A program made the position numbers and the translations under genes. The notes beneath the pieces were generated by a model that saw only the letters and a program-made list of their open reading frames with translations, searched no databases and was not told where the DNA came from. From Acidobacteriota bacterium (GTDB lineage Bacteria; Acidobacteriota; Terriglobia; Terriglobales; Acidobacteriaceae): a stretch of DNA of 64,000 bases. Positions 33,721 through 46,043 of this stretch are shown here, piece after piece (positions within the stretch are counted from its first letter, which is position 1; every line of letters begins with the position of its first letter). The stretch lies in assembly GCA_021816455.1 (NCBI GenBank), contig JAKAXU010000002.1, forward strand, positions 62,001 through 126,000. Reading direction: 5' to 3'.

Positions 33721-33929
33721 GCCTATTCTTTGCTTCAGCCTCCGTGCTTCTGTGCACCGACCTTGCCGGTCGCGGCCAGCCTCCACCGTCGAAGATGAAC
33801 GGAAGATGAAGCTGTGATGACCATCACCGCGACACCGCAACAACACTCGCATACTTGACACCTGATGGGTACACCTACCACCTGGCCGCTCCGGCCGGTT
33901 CGGTTTCCACCCCGTCACGGGGAGAGGTT

Positions 33930-34934
33930 ATGCAATCGCGTTCCTCCGTCTTATCCTCCTTGTCAAAGCGTCTTTCGCTTGTTTCATCGCTGGCTCTTGT
34001 GCTGGCTGTGGCATTGCTGGGCGCCGCTGCGGCTCGGGCGCAAAAGAAACCTGCGGCCTCTGCAACGTCCACCACACTGAAGACAGCCCACAATGCAGCC
34101 GCGCAGAGTGCCGCGCCCAATGGCCCGTCTGGGAAGGCGAAGTTCGTCGGAAACGACACCTGCGTGGCGTGTCACTTCGACGAGGCCAAAGCAATCGACG
34201 GGAATGCACACGCGCGCCTCGCGCTGCAGCACGGCGGCCAGGGCGACACCTGTGAAAGTTGCCATGGCGCAGGCAGCGAGCATGTGGAATCCGGCGGCGA
34301 TGCCACGAAGATGTTCTCCTTCAGCAAAGCCACACCGGCACAGGCCGATGCTGTCTGTCTGTCGTGCCATGCTTCGGCCCATCCCAACTTCAAGCGCACG
34401 GCGCATGGCGAGGCAGGCGTCGGCTGCACGAGTTGCCACAGCGCGCATCACGCGAAGACCGAAGAGGCGATGCTTCGGCAGCCGCAACCGCTGCTTTGTT
34501 ACAGCTGTCACACCGACGTGAAGCCGGTCTTCGAGCAGGCGTTTCACCACAAAGTGAACGAAGGCGTGATGAGCTGCAGCGACTGCCACGATCCGCACGG
34601 CAGCTTCCAGCGGAACAATCTGCGCGCCGCCGCCGATCAGAACCAGATTTGTATGAAGTGCCACTCGGACACGGCTGGGCCGTTCATCTATGAGCATCCG
34701 CCGCTGAAGACCGAGGGATGCACAAGCTGTCACACGCCGCACGGCTCGCAGAACGCGCGCCTGCTGACACAAAACAACGTAAACAGCCTCTGCATGCAGT
34801 GCCACACCGCCTCTTCGATCTTCAACGCGCCGGGTACGCCGTCGTTCCACAATCAGGCTAATCAGTACCAGGCCTGCACCGTGTGCCACACGCAGATTCA
34901 CGGCTCCAACGCCAGCAACATCTTCTTCAAATAA
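33930..34934 (+). CDS. DmsE/MtrA-type decaheme cytochrome c
   Basis: A 334-residue periplasmic multiheme cytochrome with a signal peptide (LVSSLALVLAVALLGAAAARA) and ten CXXCH haem sites: CVACH, CESCH, CLSCH, CTSCH, CYSCH, CSDCH, CMKCH, CTSCH, CMQCH and CTVCH. Ten haems in about 280 residues, with the C-terminal region CTVCHTQIHGSNASNIFFK, match the DmsE/MtrA family, in which the cytochrome plugs into an outer-membrane porin and passes electrons across it. GGAGAGG precedes the ATG at 33930. The next gene, a beta-barrel, is 13 bp away; together they look like a porin-cytochrome conduit. No MtrC/OmcA-like surface decaheme is in the window. Confidence 0.92.
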   Translation: MQSRSSVLSSLSKRLSLVSSLALVLAVALLGAAAARAQKKPAASATSTTLKTAHNAAAQSAAPNGPSGKAKFVGNDTCVACHFDEAKAIDGNAHARLALQHGGQGDTCESCHGAGSEHVESGGDATKMFSFSKATPAQADAVCLSCHASAHPNFKRTAHGEAGVGCTSCHSAHHAKTEEAMLRQPQPLLCYSCHTDVKPVFEQAFHHKVNEGVMSCSDCHDPHGSFQRNNLRAAADQNQICMKCHSDTAGPFIYEHPPLKTEGCTSCHTPHGSQNARLLTQNNVNSLCMQCHTASSIFNAPGTPSFHNQANQYQACTVCHTQIHGSNASNIFFK

Positions 34935-34947
34935 GCAAGGGGGAATT

Positions 34948-37320
34948 ATGAAGCGCTCTTCCGTCTTCTTTTCACCCCTGATCTCTTCCCCATCAGGAGA
35001 TCGATCCATGAGCTGCCATCGGGCCGCACTCCGCGGCGTCCTGGGCGCAGCCAAGGTTGCCTTCACTCTGACCGGACTGACGCTCGCCCTCTGTGCTGCG
35101 ACGCCGGGCGAGAAGCCGGATGCAACAGCTGGCGCGAAACCAGGAGTGGCTTCCGCTGCGACTTCAAGCTCCGCCTCCAGAGCTGCATCGAGTACCGCGC
35201 GCAACGCGCCGGACCACTACAACCCGCTCCCCGAGCAGACGCCGGAGACGCAGGCCGAAGCAAGCGCAAAGTTTGCCGCGCAGTACAAGATTCACAACGA
35301 GATCGAGGTTGGCGGCCATATCGCACCCTACGGCGGCAGCGGCGAAACCTATGCGACCATGGTCAATCTGCACAGCGGGCCGCGTTTTCTCAGCGAATCG
35401 ACGGAGATGCACGCCGTCAAGGGCGCGAAGCCACTGCTCTTCGACAGCCTATCGAGCAACAGCTTCGGCTACGGCGGCGATCCCTACAGCGCGACGTTTC
35501 TCAACTTTGAAAAAGGGCGAGACTATGACTTTGTCGGCAGCTTCCGACGCGGACGAAGCTACGTGGACTACGATCTTCTGGCCAACCCACTCATTCCGTC
35601 CGGCGTCGGCAACGTTCCCTATCTCACTTCGCCGCACCTGTTCAACACCGTGCGCAAGATGCTCGACACACTGCTGATCTTTGCCCCGCTTTCGCCCGTA
35701 AGTCTGCGCGTAGGCTTCAGCCAGAACAACAGTGAAGGCCCGTCACTCAGCAGCGTTCACTTCGGCGCCGAAGCGCTGCTTGGCCAGAACTGGAACATCC
35801 AGACCCAGAACTGGACCCTCGGCATCGACGTGAAGCTGCCGCGCAACACCAGCGCGAGCTATGACCACATCATGACGCTCTATCGTGAGTTCACCACGTG
35901 GAATCTGGATATGCTCAACAACACGCTGCCCAACGGAGTTGCGGTCAGCGGCGGCATCGACTTCGTGCCGAAATGGAACGATCCGTGCGCTTCGCCACTC
36001 CTGCCCGGCGGAGCTTTCAACCCGGCCTGCAGTGGCTTTACGGCATATAGCCGACAAGCGCCGACGCATCTGTTCACACCCACCGAGGAGTTTCGCTTCC
36101 ACAGCGCGGCCATTCCGCGACTGGAGATGAATGGACGCTTCGTCTACAGCGGCAGCACGAGCACGCTCAACAACTTTAACGAGACTTTTGTCGGCAACGA
36201 GACGCGCATCAAACTCCTGGAGTCGGTCGAAACGGGCAGCGCGCGCATCCGGCGTGTGAACGTCAGTGGTGACTACGCTGTCGAGTGGCAGGTAGCCAAG
36301 CGTTTCTCTGTCTCGAATGTCGTCAATTACCAGTACTGGCGCATTCCTGGTACCAACAGCTACATCACGGTCAACTACACCGGCACTTCGATGCTGGCCA
36401 CGCCCACACCGCCCGCCAGCGCACCTGCCGCTGTTCCGGACTATCAGTGGCTCAACCAGAAATGGACCTCGGATACCGTGTTGGGAACCTGGGACACCTT
36501 CAGCCGCGCCAATTTCTCGCTCGGCTACCGCTATCGCACACGCACCATCACCGACAGCGGCGGCGATGTGATTCCCATCCACGAGAACTGGCTGCTCTTC
36601 GGCAGCGTTCTGCAGCCCGCCGCGACGTGGCGTGTCAATCTCAACTTCGAGAGCATGTACGCTGACAACTCCTTCACGCGCATCAGCCCGCGCCAGTTGC
36701 AGCACGTGATTGTCCGCTCGAACTGGAAGCCGCAGAAATGGATGACCTTCACCGGCACGGTGAACATCTTTGAAAGCCGCGACAATGTCCAGTTTGTGAA
36801 CTATCTCCAGCACAACCGGAATTATTCTGTTGGTGCTGTCATCGCTCCCGACGGAGCCTGGTCGCTCGAAGCCAATTACTCCTACGGCAGCGTCTACTCG
36901 ACGATTGCCGAGTGCTACACGGTGACTCCGGCGCCTGCCAACCCGATCTCCGCGCAGGACCCTGCCTGCGTCGCCAATGGCACACCCTACCAGACGAACG
37001 ACTCGTACAACGTGCCTACGCAGACGGGAAATCTCGGCCTGGTCTACTCACCCTTCAAGCGCGTGCATACGACGGCCGGCTATCGCGCGACGGCAGTCAA
37101 TGGCAACACAACCACAATCAACGTTCGTCAGGTGGATGGCTCGCTGCAGTCGGTCTATCAGACGCCTTATGCGACGGTCGCCTATGACCTGGAAAACAAC
37201 TGGCAGTGGAAGGCCAACTACGACTACTACGGCTACGGCGAAGGCAGCCCGGTCGGTCCCGCGGCGCCGCGACAGTTTCACGGCAACGTCTATACGCTTT
37301 CGGTGCGCTATGCGTTCTGA
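34948..37320 (+). CDS. MtrB/PioB-like outer-membrane porin (putative)
   Basis: A 790-residue exported protein. N-terminal hydrophobic segment (VAFTLTGLTLALCAA) after a short basic part; a second start ATG at 35008 with AGGAG upstream would give a more standard signal peptide. After a Ala/Ser-rich linker (to about residue 90) the rest alternates hydrophobic and polar residues in long strands and ends in the aromatic C-terminal pattern YTLSVRYAF, typical of beta-barrels inserted by BAM. The gene sits right after the decaheme cytochrome, the same order as mtrA-mtrB. Sequence similarity to MtrB itself is not obvious by eye, so the assignment relies on size, barrel pattern and position. Confidence 0.65.
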   Translation: MKRSSVFFSPLISSPSGDRSMSCHRAALRGVLGAAKVAFTLTGLTLALCAATPGEKPDATAGAKPGVASAATSSSASRAASSTARNAPDHYNPLPEQTPETQAEASAKFAAQYKIHNEIEVGGHIAPYGGSGETYATMVNLHSGPRFLSESTEMHAVKGAKPLLFDSLSSNSFGYGGDPYSATFLNFEKGRDYDFVGSFRRGRSYVDYDLLANPLIPSGVGNVPYLTSPHLFNTVRKMLDTLLIFAPLSPVSLRVGFSQNNSEGPSLSSVHFGAEALLGQNWNIQTQNWTLGIDVKLPRNTSASYDHIMTLYREFTTWNLDMLNNTLPNGVAVSGGIDFVPKWNDPCASPLLPGGAFNPACSGFTAYSRQAPTHLFTPTEEFRFHSAAIPRLEMNGRFVYSGSTSTLNNFNETFVGNETRIKLLESVETGSARIRRVNVSGDYAVEWQVAKRFSVSNVVNYQYWRIPGTNSYITVNYTGTSMLATPTPPASAPAAVPDYQWLNQKWTSDTVLGTWDTFSRANFSLGYRYRTRTITDSGGDVIPIHENWLLFGSVLQPAATWRVNLNFESMYADNSFTRISPRQLQHVIVRSNWKPQKWMTFTGTVNIFESRDNVQFVNYLQHNRNYSVGAVIAPDGAWSLEANYSYGSVYSTIAECYTVTPAPANPISAQDPACVANGTPYQTNDSYNVPTQTGNLGLVYSPFKRVHTTAGYRATAVNGNTTTINVRQVDGSLQSVYQTPYATVAYDLENNWQWKANYDYYGYGEGSPVGPAAPRQFHGNVYTLSVRYAF

Positions 37321-37337
37321 AATCGCCTGTAAGGCTG

Positions 37338-37368
37338 CGGCGGAGCGGCGATCGGACATGCTCCGCCG
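37338..37368. repeat. Stem-loop between porin and cytochrome c genes
   Basis: CGGCGGAGC (37338-37346) and GCTCCGCCG (37360-37368) form a perfect 9-bp stem with a 13-base loop, 17 bases after the porin stop. There is no T-run, so it is unlikely to end transcription; it may protect or process the mRNA inside the operon. Confidence 0.45.
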
Positions 37369-37448
37369 GGACACTCCGGAGATAGAGGAACCTTGGCATT
37401 CGATACAGTCCAACGCAACCCAAACAAACTCAGGAGGTCCGAACCCAG

Positions 37449-37796
37449 ATGCTCACCCACAACGCAACCTTTCGTAAACCGCGCTTTGCCGTTGCGCTTG
37501 CTCTCCTTTGCACTCTCGCCTGCGCCTCCGCAGCGCTGGCCGAAAGCTCCGGTGCGGATATTTACAAGTCCAAATGCCAGATGTGTCACGGGGCGGATCT
37601 CAAGGGAAATACTCCAGGCGGCAAGATGACCCATACGCAGCCGTTGGACACGCCGGAAGTGATCGCGAAGACGGATGCCGATCTGACAGCCACCACGAAG
37701 AACGGCAGGAAAAAGATGCCGGCCTTCGCCTCGAAGCTGAGCGACGCGCAGATCCACTCGGTGATCGCTTACATCCGCACGCTGCAGAAGAAATAA
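37449..37796 (+). CDS. Monoheme class I cytochrome c
   Basis: A 115-residue periplasmic cytochrome with a signal peptide (FAVALALLCTLACASAALA). The single haem site is CQMCHG; the distal Met is the one in KKMPAF. C-terminal helix SDAQIHSVIAYIRTLQKK is typical of small class I cytochromes. AGGAGG lies about 12 bases before the ATG. It sits between the porin and the NapC-type cytochrome and may shuttle electrons between the inner-membrane and porin-bound cytochromes. Confidence 0.9.
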   Translation: MLTHNATFRKPRFAVALALLCTLACASAALAESSGADIYKSKCQMCHGADLKGNTPGGKMTHTQPLDTPEVIAKTDADLTATTKNGRKKMPAFASKLSDAQIHSVIAYIRTLQKK

Positions 37797-37826
37797 GGGG
37801 CTGCCCGAAAGAAGGGAGAGAAAGCC

Positions 37827-39257
37827 ATGTCCACGTTTCAGCGCTTCCGGGAATCCTGGCTGCGGCCGATTCTCTTCTTCGGCAACAACCTTTTGAGCCT
37901 GATCGGAGGCGCACTGACAAGTGCCTCCGCGTTTGTCCTCATCGGCTTTTATCTGGTGGATGCCTTTGGTCACGGTGGCTCACGGAACCCTTACCTGGGC
38001 ATCATTCTGGGCTTCTTCCTGCCGGCGCTGTTTCTCCTCGGGCTTTTGCTTATTCCTCTCGGCATACTTGCCCGGCACGCCGCCCTGCGCAGGGCCGGGA
38101 AGATTCCCTCGGTCTATCCCCGTATCAATCTCGCCGATCCGCTCTTCCGCCACGGCATCGAAGTTGTGCTCCTGGCCACCTTCGTCAACTTCGTCCTGCT
38201 TGGCACGGCCACCTATCGCGGTGTAGCTTACATGGACACAAAGGACTTCTGCGGAGCGACCTGCCACGTCATGGCTCCGGAAGGCACGGCCTATCCGGTT
38301 TTCGCGCACTCCGGAGTTCCCTGTGTGGGCTGCCATGTCGGCTCCGGAGTCGGCGGCTACATCCACGCCAAGGTGAATGGAACTAGGCAGCTCATCGATG
38401 TCCTGCGTAACCGCTACCCGGCGCCCATTCTGACCAACGACTTGCTGCCGTCAGCCAGCCAGACCTGTCTCAACTGCCATCGCGCCGACGCCTGGATCGG
38501 CGACAAGATACGCATCTCCACCACCTTTGACGATGATGAGAAGAACACCCGCACCCGCAGCCTGATTCTGCTGCACGTGGGAGGGCGCGACCTCACCGGC
38601 AAGCTGTCCGGCATTCACGGCGCGCATCTTGGCCACATCGTCTATATCTCCACCGACACCAGACACCAGATCATCCACTACGTCGCGAAGACTGAGGCGG
38701 ATGGCTCTGTCGTCGAGTACACGGACACAAATCTGAAGCAGGCCAGAGTTGGCGTCCAGCGCGCCATGGACTGCACCGATTGCCACAACCGCGTTGCGCA
38801 CTCCTTCGATACACCCGAAAAAGCCGTGGACAGAAGCATGCTTGCCGGAGCGATCAGCCCCGAACTGCCTTTCATTCACAAGGAGTCAATCGCGCTGCTC
38901 AAGGCCAGTTACGGCAGCCCGGAGCAGGCGCGCACGCAGATCGCCGCCAGCCTGAAGCGCTTTTACCAGAGCAATTACCCCGACCTCTGGCAGAAGGATC
39001 AGCCGCGAATTGCTGAGGCAGCCAGCCGACTGGCCGTGCTCTGGAGCCAAAACGTCTTTCCATTCATGAAGGTAACCTGGGGAACGTACCCCAACAACCT
39101 GGGCCACAATGACTATCCGGGTTGTTCCCGCTGCCATGACGGCAGCCACAATTCGGCCTCGGGTCAATCGATCTCCAGCGACTGCTCGGTCTGCCACAAC
39201 GTGCTTACGATCGACGACAGCAACCGCAGCCAGCTTGCCGACCTCGGCGTACAGTAA
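37827..39257 (+). CDS. NapC/NirT-type hexaheme membrane cytochrome
   Basis: A 476-residue inner-membrane cytochrome with three hydrophobic segments in the first 135 residues (ALTSASAFVLIGFYLVDAF; IILGFFLPALFLLGLLLIPL; VVLLATFVNFVLLGTATY), followed by a periplasmic domain. Haem sites are CGATCH (a CX3CH form, followed by VM as in NapC haem 1), then CVGCH, CLNCH, CTDCH, CSRCH and CSVCH: six haems. The block from the first haem to HAKVNGTRQLIDVL resembles NapC/NirT quinol-oxidising proteins such as CymA/ImcH. It would take electrons from quinol and pass them to the periplasmic cytochromes. It ends the operon that starts at 33930. Confidence 0.85.
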   Translation: MSTFQRFRESWLRPILFFGNNLLSLIGGALTSASAFVLIGFYLVDAFGHGGSRNPYLGIILGFFLPALFLLGLLLIPLGILARHAALRRAGKIPSVYPRINLADPLFRHGIEVVLLATFVNFVLLGTATYRGVAYMDTKDFCGATCHVMAPEGTAYPVFAHSGVPCVGCHVGSGVGGYIHAKVNGTRQLIDVLRNRYPAPILTNDLLPSASQTCLNCHRADAWIGDKIRISTTFDDDEKNTRTRSLILLHVGGRDLTGKLSGIHGAHLGHIVYISTDTRHQIIHYVAKTEADGSVVEYTDTNLKQARVGVQRAMDCTDCHNRVAHSFDTPEKAVDRSMLAGAISPELPFIHKESIALLKASYGSPEQARTQIAASLKRFYQSNYPDLWQKDQPRIAEAASRLAVLWSQNVFPFMKVTWGTYPNNLGHNDYPGCSRCHDGSHNSASGQSISSDCSVCHNVLTIDDSNRSQLADLGVQ

Positions 39258-39975: not shown

Positions 39976-40078
39976 CGTTCCAGCAGATGCCGATTCTGCG
40001 GCCGTGGTGGCAGGCGGCTACCGCACCCGGCTTACCCTGCTCCGATAGATTTGACTCCCGCTTTTGAAAGGTGGACAC

Positions 40079-41323
40079 GTGTTTCGCAAGCGTTCTTTCT
40101 GGATTGTGCTGCTCATCGTAGTGGCGATCGTGGTCGTGGTGGTCATTCGCAGCCGCAAACCCGCCGAGGGGTCGGAGAAAGCTCTTCCGGCGCCGGTCGC
40201 CGTCGCACAGCAGGGCGACCTGACGGCGCAGCTTCAGGTCGCCGGTCAGTTCATTCCCTATCAGAACGTGGATGTGCATGCCAAGATTGCCGGCTACGTC
40301 CGCTGGATCAAGGTGGATATCGGCGACATTGTGCACACCAACGAGGTGATGGCCAAGCTGGAAGTGCCGGAGTTGCGCGACCAGTTGGCGGAGACCAAAG
40401 CGGCGGTACAGCACGCGCAGGCGGAGGTGATCCGCGAGAAAGAAGAAGTTGCGCATTCGGATGCGGCGTATCGGGCGATTCACCTGAACTATACCCGCCT
40501 GGCCGAGGCCGCCAAGGAGCGTCCCGGATTGATCGCGCAGCAGGAGATTGACGACTACCAGGCGCGCGACCTGGAAGCGGCGGCTAAGATCGACGTGGCC
40601 AAGGCCGCCTATGAAGCTGCCGAGCAGCAGTTGAGCCAGGCCCGATCAAATCAGGACCGCGTTGCTGCGCTCTACTCCTACACCGACATCGTCTCGCCCT
40701 ACAACGGCGTGGTCACCTTCCGCTATGCCGACACCGGCGCGCTGGTGCCGGCCGGAACCAACTCGAACGGAACCAGCGCGAATACGGAGTCGATGCCGGT
40801 GGTGAAGGTGGCCCAGAGCGACCTGCTCCGATTGCGCATGCCGGTGCCCGAGTCCGATGTGCCCTACATTGATATCGGCGGCAAGGTGGACGTGCATGTG
40901 GATGCGACCGGCAAGGTCTTCCCCGGCAAGATCATCCGCTTCACGCGCGCGCTGGACCCGTCGACGCGCACCATGCTCACCGAAGTGGACGTGCCGAATC
41001 CGAAGCTGACGCTCACGCCGGGCATGTACGCCGAAACCACCTTCTATCTGCACACCAAACACGACGCGATCTTCATTCCCGCACAGGCCGTCGTCACCTC
41101 CGGCAACAGCTATTACATTCTTGTTCTGGATGCGACCAACCACGTCGAGAAACGCATTGTGCATCTGGGCATCCAGACGCCGAACAAGACGGAGATCATC
41201 GATGGCGGACTGAAGCCTGGCGAAAAGGTCATTGCTGCCGGCCAGGACAGCTATCGTGAAGGCGATTTGATCGATCCTCATCCCGCCTTTATCCCGACCA
41301 CGGCGCAGGAGGAAGGCAACTAA
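40079..41323 (+). CDS. RND efflux periplasmic adaptor (system 1)
   Basis: A 414-residue membrane-fusion protein. GTG at 40079 is chosen because AAAGGTGG lies 6 bases upstream; a TTG at 40064 is less likely. An N-terminal anchor helix (SFWIVLLIVVAIVVVVVI) is followed by the lipoyl half-motifs (VDVHAKIAGYVRWIKVDIGD and IVSPYNGVVTFRYADTGALV), a long coiled-coil hairpin (residues about 105-190, AETKAAVQHAQAEVIREKEE) and the beta-barrel region (FPGKIIRFTRALDPSTRTM). The gene abuts the RND pump (stop TAA directly before its ATG), so pump and adaptor are one unit with the TolC-like gene. Confidence 0.92.
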   Translation: MFRKRSFWIVLLIVVAIVVVVVIRSRKPAEGSEKALPAPVAVAQQGDLTAQLQVAGQFIPYQNVDVHAKIAGYVRWIKVDIGDIVHTNEVMAKLEVPELRDQLAETKAAVQHAQAEVIREKEEVAHSDAAYRAIHLNYTRLAEAAKERPGLIAQQEIDDYQARDLEAAAKIDVAKAAYEAAEQQLSQARSNQDRVAALYSYTDIVSPYNGVVTFRYADTGALVPAGTNSNGTSANTESMPVVKVAQSDLLRLRMPVPESDVPYIDIGGKVDVHVDATGKVFPGKIIRFTRALDPSTRTMLTEVDVPNPKLTLTPGMYAETTFYLHTKHDAIFIPAQAVVTSGNSYYILVLDATNHVEKRIVHLGIQTPNKTEIIDGGLKPGEKVIAAGQDSYREGDLIDPHPAFIPTTAQEEGN

Positions 41324-44300
41324 ATGTCCTCGTTTGCCATTCGTTACCCGTTCTTCATCCTGATGTTCTGTTTGATGATCGTGGTGGTGGGCATCACCAC
41401 GGTCGCCAGGATGCCGGTCGATCTCTTTCCGGAGATCAATATTCCGGTCGTCGTGGTGGCCACGTTCTACTCAGGCATGCCGCCGGAGCAGATTGAGGCC
41501 GACATCACCGACACCTACGAGCGATTTTTCACCCTTGGCAGCAATATTGAGCACATCGAGTCGCGCTCACTGACCGGCGTCAGCCTCATCAAGGTCTACT
41601 TTCAGCCCGGCACCGATCCGAACGCGGCGGTGAGCAGCATCTCCGGCCTGGCGCTGGCCGATCTGCGTCGCCTGCCTCCCGGAACACTGCCGCCGGTCGT
41701 TCTTCCCTTCGATGCGTCGAACCTTCCCGTCTGTCTGATTACGCTGGAAGGCAAAGGATTGAACGAGGTACAGCTCAAGGATCTCGCGCAGTTTGAGGTC
41801 CGCAACCAGGTGGCCAATGTGCCCGGCGCTTCCGTGCCGCAACCTTACGGCGGCACCTATCGCCAGATTCAGATCTATGTCGATCCGCTGAAGCTGGAAG
41901 CCCATGAGATGTCGGTGATGGATGTGGTCAACGCGATCAACGCCACCAACCTCATCCTGCCCGCCGGCGACGTCCGTATCGGCACGCTCGACTACAACAT
42001 CTACGCCAACAGCCAGGAAGACATCGTGGAGCGCATGAACGACATGCCGGTGAAAAGCGATGTCTCGCCCACGGTCAAGTCGGTGGTGCGCGTGCGCGAT
42101 ATCGGCAGGGCGGAGGACTCCGGCGCGCTGCAGTACAACATCGTCCGCGTCGACGGCCAGCACTCCGTCTACATTCCGATTCTCAAGCAGGGTGGCGATT
42201 CCAACACCATCTCCATCGTCAACGGCATCCGCGAGGCCATCAAGCATCTGCTCGACGTGCCGGAGCAGTTGAGGACCGCGGTCGTATTCGACCAGTCAGT
42301 CTTCGTCAAGATCGCCGTCAAGAACGTCATCAACGAGGGCACCATCGGGCTGGTTCTTACGGCCATCATGATCCTGCTCTTCCTGGGCAACTTCCGGGCT
42401 ACGATTTCGGTGATGCTCTCGATCCCGATCTCGGCACTGACGGCCTTCATCGCACTCAATCTGGGCGGCAGTACTATCAACACGATGGTGCTGGGCGGCA
42501 TCGCGCTGGCTCTCTCGCGACTGATTGACAACTCGGTTGTGGTGCTGGAAAACATCTTCCGCCACATGGAACTGGGGGAAAATCCCCGCGACGCCGCAGT
42601 GAACGGCGGTAAGGAAGTGCAACTTGCCGTACTGGCCGCCACGGCCAGCACCAGCATCGTCTTCTTCCCGGTTATTCTGCTGGTCGGCGTCAGCAAATAC
42701 CTGTTCACGGCGCTGGCACTGGCCGTGGTGCTCGCGCTGCTGTCTTCTTACGTGGTGGCGATGACTGTGGTGCCGCTGTTCTGCGCTACGTTCATCAAGA
42801 ACGTCGGCCATCATGCGCACAACGCTGAAGAGGCTGAGGAGAACCTTGCCGAAGCCGAACATGTCGCGTCTCATGGCACCGCGCACGGAGCCGGGCACGG
42901 AGCCTCTCACGGCGCGCAGAAGATCAGTCTCTTCCAGCGCATCGTCCGGGGGTTCAACGCGCAGTTCGATCGCCTGCAGCATGCCTACGACAAGGCGATT
43001 GTGGTCTGTCTCGACCGTCCCGTGCTGGTTGTGCTTGCCTTCTCCACCTTCGTCGTGGTCAGCTTCGGACTCTTTCCGGTGCTGGGCAAAGCGTTCTTTC
43101 CGCGCACCGACCCCGGACAGTTCGTCATCAACTTCAAGGCTCCTCCGGGCACCCGCATTGAAGTCACCGACGAGTATGCCGCGATGATGGAGAACGATAT
43201 CCGCCACATCGTCAGTAAAGAGGACATGAACATGATCGTGACCAACATTGGCGTCACGCCTGATCTGTCCTCCATCTACACCTCGAACTCGGCGATGCAC
43301 ACCGGTTTCATTCAGGTCAGCCTGAAGGAAGACCACAAGATCAGCAGTTTTGTTTACATGCAACGGGTTCGCCAGAGATTCCATCGCGACTTCCCGGAGA
43401 TCGGCGTCTACTTCCAGACCGGCGGCCTGGTGGACTCTGTCGTCAACCAGGGCAAACCGGCTCCGATCGACGTTCGCGTCGGCAGCGGCGACCTTGAATC
43501 CGGCTTCCAATACGCGACGCGGGTAGCGGCGCGAGTACGTAAGCTGGACACGGTCAACGACGTACTGATTCCGCAGGATCTCAGTTATCCCGGTCTGCGG
43601 CTGGACATCAACCGCGAGCAGGCGGGTTTGCAAAACATCTCCGTCGAGGATGCGGTGGACAACGTCATCACGGCCCTCACCTCGGACTCGCAGATTGCTC
43701 CCACTTTCTGGGTCGATCCCAAGACGGGGAACAACTACTTCCTGAGCGTCCAGTACCCGAACAACCAGATCAAAACGATGACCGACTTCAAGGAAATTCC
43801 TTTGCGCGCCCGCGACAACAAGAGCTACGCGCCGCTGGAGTCGATCGCCAAGATCGTGCCCATTGATACGCCGACCGAGGTCGATCATTATCAGCTTCGT
43901 CGCAGCTACGATGTCTACATCCAGCCGAAGAGCGAAAACCTGACGACCATCAACAACCAGGTACATAAGATTCTGGCCAGCATGCCGACTCCGCGCGGCG
44001 TCACCGTTCAGGTGTCTGGAGCGGTGACGGATATGCAGGAGGTCTTCGGCAGCTTCGCCATCGGACTGGTGCTGGCCATTGTGCTCGTCTACCTCATCCT
44101 GATGGCGCAGTTCGCCTCCTTCTCGGATCCGTTCATCATTCTGCTGGCGATTCCGCCAGGCATGTCGGGCGTGATCCTCTTCCTGTTGCTCACGCACACC
44201 ACCCTGAACGTGATGTCGCTGATGGGCGTCATCATGATGACCGGCATCGTGGTCTCGGACAGCATTCTGATCGTTGAGTTCGTGGGCACGCTGCGTGGGC

Positions 44301-44590
44301 TGGGTCATCCGCTGAAGATCGCCCTTGCCGAGGCCTGCAAAGTGCGTCTGCGTCCGATTCTGATGACAACGATGGCCACCGTTCTGGGCCTGATTCCCAT
44401 GGCTCTGGCACTGGAGCCGGGCAGCGAACAGTATGCTCCGCTGGCCCGCGCCATTCTGGGCGGACTCACCGTTTCTGGAACCGTCACCGTCTTTCTGGTA
44501 CCTTCGGCCTACTACCTGATGCACCGCAAAGAGGAAGCCCTTGAAGCGGCAGCCGCCGCAGCCAGCGGCACGGAGGCATCTCATGACTAA
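41324..44590 (+). CDS. RND efflux pump inner-membrane transporter (system 1)
   Basis: A 1088-residue HAE1-like RND transporter with twelve membrane helices and two large periplasmic loops. Marks include RMPVDLFPEINIPVVVV, the helix-4 segment ALSRLIDNSVVVLENIF and GVIMMTGIVVSDSILIVEF in the second half. The proton-relay pair that is Asp-Asp in AcrB reads Asp402-Asn403 here. Between the two halves there is a histidine-rich cytoplasmic stretch (residues 496-529, eight His with Gly/Ala/Glu), which is not usual in AcrB-type pumps and could bind metal ions. Pump, adaptor and TolC-like protein form the tripartite complex. Substrate is unknown; a metal or lipophilic compound are both possible. Confidence 0.93.
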   Translation: MSSFAIRYPFFILMFCLMIVVVGITTVARMPVDLFPEINIPVVVVATFYSGMPPEQIEADITDTYERFFTLGSNIEHIESRSLTGVSLIKVYFQPGTDPNAAVSSISGLALADLRRLPPGTLPPVVLPFDASNLPVCLITLEGKGLNEVQLKDLAQFEVRNQVANVPGASVPQPYGGTYRQIQIYVDPLKLEAHEMSVMDVVNAINATNLILPAGDVRIGTLDYNIYANSQEDIVERMNDMPVKSDVSPTVKSVVRVRDIGRAEDSGALQYNIVRVDGQHSVYIPILKQGGDSNTISIVNGIREAIKHLLDVPEQLRTAVVFDQSVFVKIAVKNVINEGTIGLVLTAIMILLFLGNFRATISVMLSIPISALTAFIALNLGGSTINTMVLGGIALALSRLIDNSVVVLENIFRHMELGENPRDAAVNGGKEVQLAVLAATASTSIVFFPVILLVGVSKYLFTALALAVVLALLSSYVVAMTVVPLFCATFIKNVGHHAHNAEEAEENLAEAEHVASHGTAHGAGHGASHGAQKISLFQRIVRGFNAQFDRLQHAYDKAIVVCLDRPVLVVLAFSTFVVVSFGLFPVLGKAFFPRTDPGQFVINFKAPPGTRIEVTDEYAAMMENDIRHIVSKEDMNMIVTNIGVTPDLSSIYTSNSAMHTGFIQVSLKEDHKISSFVYMQRVRQRFHRDFPEIGVYFQTGGLVDSVVNQGKPAPIDVRVGSGDLESGFQYATRVAARVRKLDTVNDVLIPQDLSYPGLRLDINREQAGLQNISVEDAVDNVITALTSDSQIAPTFWVDPKTGNNYFLSVQYPNNQIKTMTDFKEIPLRARDNKSYAPLESIAKIVPIDTPTEVDHYQLRRSYDVYIQPKSENLTTINNQVHKILASMPTPRGVTVQVSGAVTDMQEVFGSFAIGLVLAIVLVYLILMAQFASFSDPFIILLAIPPGMSGVILFLLLTHTTLNVMSLMGVIMMTGIVVSDSILIVEFVGTLRGLGHPLKIALAEACKVRLRPILMTTMATVLGLIPMALALEPGSEQYAPLARAILGGLTVSGTVTVFLVPSAYYLMHRKEEALEAAAAAASGTEASHD

Positions 44591-46043
44591 GCCCCTTTCC
44601 TTTCTGCTCGCTGCCGCGCTGGTTCTGCAGCCTGCCCTGCAAACAACTCTGCTGGGACAGCAAACCACGGGTACTCCCCAGCCGTCTCTGCCGCCCGCGC
44701 CGGATGCCAAACCTGTCGGGCAGGCCCTGATGGATGCGCAGAACCAAGCCGCGCAGGTGGCGAATGCCTTCGATGCCGACGCCGAGAAGCGAGCCTCGCA
44801 GGTGAACGGACCGGGTGGCAAGACGCTGACACGCAAAGAGGCCGAGCAGCTTGCCATCCGGAACAACCCGCACATCAGCCAGTACAAACTGCTTGCGTTG
44901 GCCCAGAATCAGGTCGTCCGCGAGACCCGTTCGGCTCTGTTGCCCACGCTAGCCATCAACGCAACCGGCGTGGGGGCCGAGCAGGCGTCCCGCATCTCTT
45001 CCGGTACGCTGGACTCCTCGCGCATGCTCAACCACATGGGCGTCGGCGTCGAGCTGACGCAGTTGATCTACGATTTCGGCCATACAAACAACCTGGTGGC
45101 GACCTCCGCACTCCAGGCAAAAGCTGCCTCGGCCAACTCCATCGCCACTCTGGATGAGATCGTGCTGACCACCGACGTGGCGTTCTACAACACGCTGGAG
45201 GCGCAGGCAACGGTTCGGGTTGCGAAGCAGAATCTGGCTGCGCGTCAGGCGGTTCGGGACCAGATAGCCGCTCTGACGGCGGCCAAACTCCGTTCGGACC
45301 TCGACCTGAGCTTTGCCGAGGTGAACTTGTCGCAGGCCAAACTCTTCCTGCTGGACGCCAACAATCTGGCCGATGTCGCGATGGCCCAGTTGAACCGTAT
45401 CCTCGGCCTGCCAACCTCGAACAACTACAAGCTCATCGATGAAAGCGACCCGCTTCCGGAGATCGCGCTTACGCCCGATCCGCTGTTGCAGCAGGCGATG
45501 CAGCAGCGACCCGACCTGCAGGCTTATAACTTCACCCATCAGGCCGACGTGAAGTTCAGCAAAGCCGAGCGCGACCAGCTTCTGCCCACAGTCTCAGCTC
45601 TTGGCATCCTCGGCGCCACGCCGGCCGGCAGCAGCCAGTATTACAACCCGGACTGGTACGGCGCAGCGGGCGTCAACGTCCAGATTCCCGTCTTCAATGG
45701 CTTCCTGTTCACCGCGCAGACGGCTCAGGCACGCCTGCAGGCGCGTGCTTCCGATGAGCGCACGCGCAACCTGGTCGAGCGGATTCAGCGCGACGTCAAG
45801 TCCGCCTGGCTCAACGCCAATACAGCACGCCAGAAGATGGTCGTCACCGCCGAGTTGCTGAAGGAAGCAAACATGGCTCTCGACCTCGCGCAGACGCGTT
45901 ACAACCTTGGCCTCAGCTCCATCGTCGAGCTGAGCCAGGCCGAGTATCAGCAGACGCAGGCCGCCATCCAGGACACCAATGCGCGCTTCAGCTATGAGTC
46001 CGACCTGGCCGCGATCCGCTACCAGATCGGCGTGCAACCGTAG
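44583..46043 (+). CDS. TolC-family outer-membrane channel (system 1)
   Basis: A 486-residue exported protein. The ATG at 44583 overlaps the pump stop by 8 bp. Signal peptide MTKPLSFLLAAALVLQPALQ; a Gln/Pro/Asp-rich linker; then two TolC outer-membrane-factor repeats (residues about 85-275 and 290-480): RKEAEQLAIRNNPHISQYKL, LVATSALQAKAASANS, and in the second half AQTRYNLGLSSIVELSQAEY, the classic OEP signature. It forms the exit duct for the pump above. The strong terminator 23 bp downstream ends the operon. Confidence 0.92.
   Translation: MTKPLSFLLAAALVLQPALQTTLLGQQTTGTPQPSLPPAPDAKPVGQALMDAQNQAAQVANAFDADAEKRASQVNGPGGKTLTRKEAEQLAIRNNPHISQYKLLALAQNQVVRETRSALLPTLAINATGVGAEQASRISSGTLDSSRMLNHMGVGVELTQLIYDFGHTNNLVATSALQAKAASANSIATLDEIVLTTDVAFYNTLEAQATVRVAKQNLAARQAVRDQIAALTAAKLRSDLDLSFAEVNLSQAKLFLLDANNLADVAMAQLNRILGLPTSNNYKLIDESDPLPEIALTPDPLLQQAMQQRPDLQAYNFTHQADVKFSKAERDQLLPTVSALGILGATPAGSSQYYNPDWYGAAGVNVQIPVFNGFLFTAQTAQARLQARASDERTRNLVERIQRDVKSAWLNANTARQKMVVTAELLKEANMALDLAQTRYNLGLSSIVELSQAEYQQTQAAIQDTNARFSYESDLAAIRYQIGVQP

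Follow-up and report, generated by a model that had tools for sequence, protein, structure and literature searches.

How could an acidobacterium carry electrons between its quinone pool and the outside of the cell at a locus that encodes no MtrC-type surface cytochrome? The question is raised by a 64,000-nucleotide stretch of an acidobacterial genome, hereafter the window (G000:C67:62001-126000, in our numbering of genomes G, contigs C, loci L and families f; the genome is a 3.42 Mb draft of 101 contigs and 86.5% complete). Four genes on the + strand within positions 33930-39257 of the window encode a decahaem cytochrome, a 790-residue barrel, a monohaem cytochrome c and a six-haem membrane cytochrome. 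An initial annotation, made from the letters of the sequence, had read the four adjacent genes as a candidate porin-cytochrome conduit; their adjacency, common strand and positions were confirmed. We consider it highly probable that they form a quinol-to-surface electron conduit (ImcH, monohaem, MtrA-MtrB) without MtrC. The computed basis of this reading, which upholds the original proposal, consists of the family of the decahaem, the remote homology of the barrel, their cognate pairing, the ImcH signature of the membrane cytochrome, the conserved neighbourhood, the presence of MtrC by the pair in relatives and the negative search for MtrC in this genome; complex formation, direction and substrate are what we infer from there on.

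The decahaem cytochrome

The decahaem cytochrome scored 248.8 bits against the NCBIfam model TIGR03508 (DmsE family), over the cut-off of 192.2, and 224 against the GSU2203 family model, under that model's cut-off of 325. The best match among PDB sequences was 6r2q_A (E = 6.5e-39), which we take to be the MtrA chain, and 10 CXXCH motifs were counted, in agreement with the DmsE/MtrA type assigned at the outset. The 6R2Q structure is the MtrAB of Shewanella baltica (PMC10654088). The frame is open from a TTG at 33855, upstream of the ATG at 33930, and ends at 34934; the N-terminus is signal-like as judged by eye, and the protein is probably periplasmic.

A decahaem that passes a model named after DmsE may also suggest a DmsEF-like conduit serving a surface reductase for dimethyl sulphoxide or another molybdenum enzyme, and the genome does encode two molybdopterin oxidoreductases. 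Both PF00384 proteins lie on C70, with no other match in the genome and none on C67, where the operon is located; hence no molybdopterin oxidoreductase stands beside the operon, and an adjacent DmsA-type subunit was not found by this search. We regard a DmsEF-like role as very unlikely.

A second DmsE/MtrA decahaem is encoded on C51 (L010:6933-8147), close to the contig end and without a barrel, the remaining 0.9 kb of the contig holding no barrel-sized frame after it. It joins the window's decahaem in the tree described below and may be a soluble partner or a paralogue. In this genome, doubled CXXCH motifs passed the Pfam cut-off in the two decahaems and in a single protein on each of C3 and C73; a six-motif protein is also present at C14.

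Remote homology of the barrel to MtrB

The relationship of the barrel to MtrB appears at the level of families. A profile of 44 barrels (the window and 43 relatives) was compared by hhalign with a profile of 28 Pfam-recognised acidobacterial MtrB sequences (28 of 30 loci, two being left out by their last residue), and the comparison gave a probability of 98.2% (E = 5.3e-14) over 650 columns, nearly the full length on both sides. The reversal controls stayed low, at 2.2% for the reversed barrel against MtrB, 0.5% for the barrel against reversed MtrB and 6.1% for the barrel against its own reverse. LptD, another large barrel, sampled in 26 genomes of the family to which the window belongs, gave 0.2% and 0.5% against the barrels and 0.6% and 3.2% against MtrB. 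Random subsets (20 barrels against 13 MtrB) scored 97.4-98.2% in six of six cases. Eight members of the barrel family were also tried on Pfam (the window, L179, L182, L189, L199, L206, L181 and L212), among which the L212 barrel, from an MtrC-decahaem-barrel locus, provides a bridge to PF11854 (MtrB_PioB) with 30.6 bits at a cut-off of 23. A measure of β-type alternation, which does not count strands, gave the barrel a z value of 5.5, compared with 6.6 in MtrB, 3.4 in LptD and -0.9 in ImcH, which is helical, and 39 of the 44 barrels end in a C-terminal Phe.

By these comparisons the barrel is a remote MtrB homologue at the profile level. The Pfam MtrB model, however, leaves the window barrel unmatched, and PF11854 has no match anywhere in the window's genome. 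The profile checks suggested with the initial annotation gave a TIGR03508 match over the cut-off, a PF03264 match for the NapC likeness and a link to MtrB through the family profile only; no unrelated porin family, the other identity then envisaged, was matched. One barrel relative, L056 (G346:C11:150297-152375), contains an internal TAA stop and is possibly a decaying copy or has a wrong start.

Pairing of decahaem and barrel

In all 59 relative loci a decahaem gene lies directly upstream of the barrel gene on the same strand (58 by rule, and L082 by inspection, a long start call there producing overlapping frames). By rule, the pairing was found in 42 of 43 loci and in all 16 further loci, 15 of which lie outside the class; L055, a repeat of L005, is excluded from these counts. 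The whole four-gene order is identical in five of five loci of the genome-contig scan, with gaps of 13, 128 and 30 bases between successive genes in the window. Because this order is kept and the decahaem is always directly upstream of the barrel, the four-gene set is not a chance assembly.

A quick tree was built from the window's decahaem, 37 decahaems taken from the 59 relative loci, the C51 orphan and 28 decahaems that accompany a Pfam-type MtrB. The latter 28 group on a single 99% branch, with the 38 window-type rows on its other side, and the split by barrel type holds also in G517 and G657, where both pairs stand in tandem. A single clade of window-type rows was neither preferred nor rejected (p-AU of the approximately unbiased test, 0.26; L193 is a long row). 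Judged by sequence, the decahaem and the barrel are a predicted cognate pair.

The tandem arrangement itself is seen in L179 and L180, in which a canonical MtrAB and a window-type pair, each with its own decahaem, follow one another on one strand; in L180 the tandem pairs are followed by the monohaem and ImcH genes.

A window barrel with no direct family match and no structure could also be an unrelated porin that stands beside the cytochromes by chance, the decahaem then staying in the periplasm as an electron store. This is very unlikely in view of the profile link to MtrB with its low controls, the PF11854 bridge, the invariant pairing and the decahaem split by barrel type.

MtrC in the genome and in relatives

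The OmcA/MtrC model TIGR03507 (E ≤ 0.001) found no match in the window's genome, at 86.5% completeness. It matched 73 of 398 sampled class genomes, none of the 73 belonging to the window's family (f1), in which the barrel was found in 57 sampled genomes; the earlier observation that an MtrC/OmcA-like surface reductase is lacking thus extends from the locus to the genome and to the sampled members of the family.

Outside this family, MtrC does adjoin the pair. Five of the 16 further loci, which were chosen by barrel, carry an MtrC over the cut-off beside it (L179, L181, L188, L192 and L194), and all five proteins match PF22113, the MtrC/MtrF domain. A second set was chosen by MtrC and comes from 16 of the 73 genomes with MtrC, the 16 all belonging to family f6. 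In 14 of these 16 loci the genes for MtrC, the decahaem and a window-type barrel are neighbours, and a four-haem protein is encoded 3' of the barrel in 11 of these 14. MtrC stands alone in L205 and L207, the barrel of L214 is in two frames, and in L208 an ImcH-like fusion lies between the MtrC-pair neighbours. ImcH was found in nine of the 16 loci, a number biased upward because several loci were chosen for ImcH on the same contig; across all 73 MtrC genomes there was a barrel hit in 58 and an ImcH hit in 69. Gene order and profile matches indicate that in other acidobacteria the barrel occupies the position of MtrB next to MtrC. Ties of the homologues to some other terminal reductase had been named at the outset as a ground for doubt; the homologous loci tie the barrel to MtrC and ImcH.

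Other multihaem proteins occur near the pair. Upstream of the pair, L092:1712-4504 encodes a candidate surface cytochrome, a 930-residue protein with eight haems whose C-terminal anchor domain is of the lipo-invert kind, and L070, L079, L081 and L091, of families f1 and f7, encode a nine-haem cytochrome of 422-441 residues with a hydrophobic C-terminal stretch near the pair. The frame in L208 (6317-8950; 877 residues) matches ImcH and has 17 CX2CH motifs and one CX3CH, an apparent ImcH-multihaem fusion beside MtrC, decahaem and barrel.

The probable quinol module and the monohaem cytochrome

The membrane cytochrome has six haem motifs in all, five CX2CH and one CX3CH (at 142), and simple hydropathy places three hydrophobic clusters in the N-terminal part, around residues 31-38, 67 and 115-119. 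ImcH has been described as having three helices, an adjacent atypical CX3CH, 5-9 CX2CH motifs and partial likeness to NapC (PMC6295460). The predicted protein matches this signature in its helices, CX3CH, CX2CH count and partial NapC likeness, an assignment made on the published description. Each of the 24 ImcH open reading frames of relative loci (23 distinct, L055 repeating L005) likewise contains one CX3CH. The initial annotation of a six-haem NapC/NirT-type quinol cytochrome was right in the six haems and in the PF03264 likeness, but the type is that of ImcH and not of CymA, and one motif is CX3CH. Its monohaem cytochrome c was recovered by both PF13442 and PF00034; by rule, 28 of 43 and three of 16 relative loci have a homologue no more than 3 kb downstream of their barrel.

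The link between barrel and ImcH was followed in the 56 genomes with both positions recorded, taking the nearest pair if there were several. Both genes share a contig in 44 genomes and lie within 15 kb in 42 and within 3 kb in 32; of the remaining pairs, 12 are split between contigs and two are separated by 33 kb and 4 Mb. In the class sample (n = 399), 142 genomes have both, 85 the barrel alone, 43 ImcH alone and 129 neither (odds ratio 5.0, kinship uncontrolled), and in the window's family the numbers of genomes are 49, 8 and 6 for both, barrel alone and ImcH alone, respectively. According to PMC6295460, mtrAB/mtoAB were not found adjoining imcH; the ImcH link of an mtrAB-like pair runs against such published statements. 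No paper joining ImcH to a decahaem-barrel pair was found in a literature search that had most subscription journals outside it.

PMC6295460 names CymA, CbcL and ImcH as kinds of quinol module. A CbcL-like multihaem protein with a b-type part adjoins the pair in L071, L182 and L191, and a small NrfH-like protein does so in L083, L085, L086 and L187; both labels are ours, the NCBIfam matches being below the cut-off and the NCBIfam run covering L083 only among the four NrfH-like cases. Together with ImcH, likenesses to all three kinds of module thus adjoin the pair, that to CymA at the NrfH level only. In L071 (8491-12556) the pair is followed by two multihaem proteins, the CbcL-like one, which has 11 haems and a b-type cytochrome domain, and a cytochrome of 19 haems; ImcH lies further on.

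Direction of electron flow and points against a conduit

In the proposed mechanism, ImcH would draw electrons from the (mena)quinol pool, the monohaem cytochrome c would ferry them across the periplasm, and the MtrA-type decahaem inside the divergent MtrB-type barrel would pass them through the outer membrane. As MtrC is missing, the final haems of the decahaem would touch the outside acceptor directly, which may be a shuttle, humics or Fe(III). PMC4245776 cites works in which MtrAB by itself delivers electrons to Fe(III), so that MtrC can be dispensed with. With a monohaem carrier of class I, an acceptor of high potential would be a good fit, for instance Fe(III) at low pH. Iron reduction at low oxygen is reported for cultures of Acidobacterium capsulatum and of Acidicapsa species (PMC8790237).

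The direction of flow is not readable from sequence. The outward direction is favoured because reduction is the only process with which ImcH has been connected to date (PMC6295460). As the main alternative, the same conduit could run inward, like MtoAB/PioAB; Fe(II) or some other external reductant would then feed the decahaem and the monohaem, and these an aerobic chain or quinone. Clusters of mtr genes for Fe(II) oxidation are often without MtrC (PMC4245776), MtrC has been discussed, with reservations, as the giver of the reducing direction (PMC8805035), MtoD, a short cytochrome c, belongs to the mto loci (PMC10654088), and the genome contains an oxidase/cytochrome b region whose open reading frames were named by reading. 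With ImcH homologues reported only with reducers (PMC6295460) and MtrC adjoining the pair in relatives of other families, we think inward flow rather unlikely.

Several observations weigh against a conduit of the proposed kind in general. Regarding the barrel, that of the window had no match in Pfam (E up to 0.1), NCBIfam (E up to 1) or the PDB sequences, a 36-row profile of its family found no PDB chain, PF11854 missed six other members besides it, with only L212 of the eight passing, the match to MtrB fell to 79.7% over 203 columns when the profile was limited to the 15 nearest barrels, and AlphaFold on the barrel with six close sequences reached a mean predicted local distance difference test score (pLDDT) of 25. 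Regarding the partners, MtrC was found in none of the 42 in-class loci chosen by barrel, an ImcH hit (E ≤ 1e-20) is missing in 85 of 227 barrel genomes, and in 24 of the 43 relative loci, as in 10 of the 16, the examined stretch holds no ImcH. Furthermore, a 2018 survey judged that the mtrA/mtrB sets of acidobacteria were incomplete and did not serve as they do in Shewanella or Geobacter, and several strains in its list are given as aerobic (PMC5900883).

Barrel length and cysteines

The MtrC-less barrels are longer than the MtrC-linked ones (median 774 versus 681 residues) and richer in cysteines (6 versus 0; raw figures from 53 versus 18 loci, leaving out the duplicate L055, L056 and L214, to which the barrel tree adds nine close ones). 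The contrast is that of the window's 34-row clade with the MtrC-linked barrels. Residues 337-359 are filled in more than 60% of 10 MtrC-less and less than 30% of 13 MtrC-linked barrels selected for this alignment, with C347 inside and C361 just after, and the same pattern recurs at residues 659-662, 664-670 and 672-677, with C674 inside and C656 just before. On the barrel tree each label changes only twice, and an independent-pair test is without power; the inserts may therefore be unrelated to MtrC. A general link of long, cysteine-rich barrels to the absence of MtrC was dropped, the MtrC-less barrels outside the window's clade having 0-2 cysteines. It is a tentative and somewhat doubtful proposal that in one large acidobacterial clade long cysteine-bearing extracellular loops of the barrel replaced a lost MtrC, which would leave a self-contained ten-haem conduit for iron minerals or humus in aerobic soil bacteria.

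Features of the locus and its surroundings

Table 1. Coordinates of the candidate conduit genes and of the elements discussed within them.
Feature	Position	Strand	Basis
DmsE/MtrA-family decahaem c-type cytochrome, 334 residues from ATG	33930..34934	+	TIGR03508, 6r2q_A, 10 CXXCH
Putative outer-membrane barrel, divergent MtrB/PioB branch, 790 residues, C-terminal Phe	34948..37320	+	family profile against MtrB, β-type alternation
Barrel insert with cysteines, C347 to C361; probable loop	35986..36030	+	alignment occupancy
Second barrel insert with cysteines, C656 to C674; probable loop	36913..36969	+	alignment occupancy
Monohaem class I cytochrome c, probable periplasmic carrier	37449..37796	+	PF13442 2.6e-15, PF00034 1.3e-10
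ImcH-like inner-membrane quinol cytochrome, 476 residues	37827..39257	+	PF03264 at residues 113-221, hydropathy, haem motifs
Atypical first haem motif CX3CH (CGATCH), beside third hydrophobic stretch of ImcH-like protein	38250..38267	+	

An efflux-type set lies 3' of the operon at 40064-46043 (HlyD and OEP by Pfam), including a resistance-nodulation-division (RND) protein at 41324-44590 named by reading of the sequence alone; HlyD and RND homologues are also found 3' of the operon in the five closest loci. The cumulative guanine-cytosine skew peaks with a change of sign at ~34 kb in the window, at the operon, which is possibly close to the replication terminus.

Comparison with known conduits and significance

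Like the MtrAB core of Shewanella MtrCAB (6r2q), the window joins an MtrA-family decahaem to an MtrB-homologous barrel, but the homology of the barrel is at profile level, MtrC was not found, and an ImcH-like module takes the place of CymA. MtoAB and PioAB are likewise two-part conduits without MtrC, and mto loci share the small cytochrome c carrier; they come with CymA/MtoC and MtoD, or with PioC (PMC10654088, PMC8805035), whereas the window has ImcH. The 'Group 5' MtrCAB, for which five hits in Acidobacteriia were reported, none with an inner-membrane quinone oxidoreductase nearby (PMC8805035), fits in layout the 14 of 16 f6 loci with the same barrel family, 11 of them with the four-haem gene. 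These f6 loci are likened to Group 5 by layout, and the window differs in lacking MtrC and the four-haem gene and in having ImcH. Compared with Geobacter ImcH (495-519 residues, six CX2CH; PMC6295460), the window protein shares the N-terminal helices, the CX3CH, the CX2CH series and the NapC likeness, but is of 476 residues with five CX2CH and stands beside an mtrAB-like pair.

Acidobacterial MtrA/DmsE homologues were earlier proposed as iron-reduction genes (PMC3669403), mtrA/mtrB homologues have been listed in 13 acidobacterial genomes (PMC5900883), and homologues of PioA, PioB and PioC occur in Acidobacteria (PMC10654088). To these known acidobacterial mtrA/mtrB genes and few MtrCAB loci, the present locus adds a divergent variant, common across the class, that is linked to ImcH and has no MtrC. 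Its barrel family was found in 227 of the 399 sampled class genomes (E ≤ 0.001), an undercount because L204 (G109) and L212 (G353), seen later, are not among them.

The conduit may serve Fe(III) respiration or Fe(II) oxidation. As the Pfam MtrB model misses the window barrel, a profile of this barrel could reveal such conduits elsewhere. If the conduit works, the need for MtrC would be directly testable in an ImcH-linked system, and electron exchange with minerals or humus could be within reach of a large share of the class.

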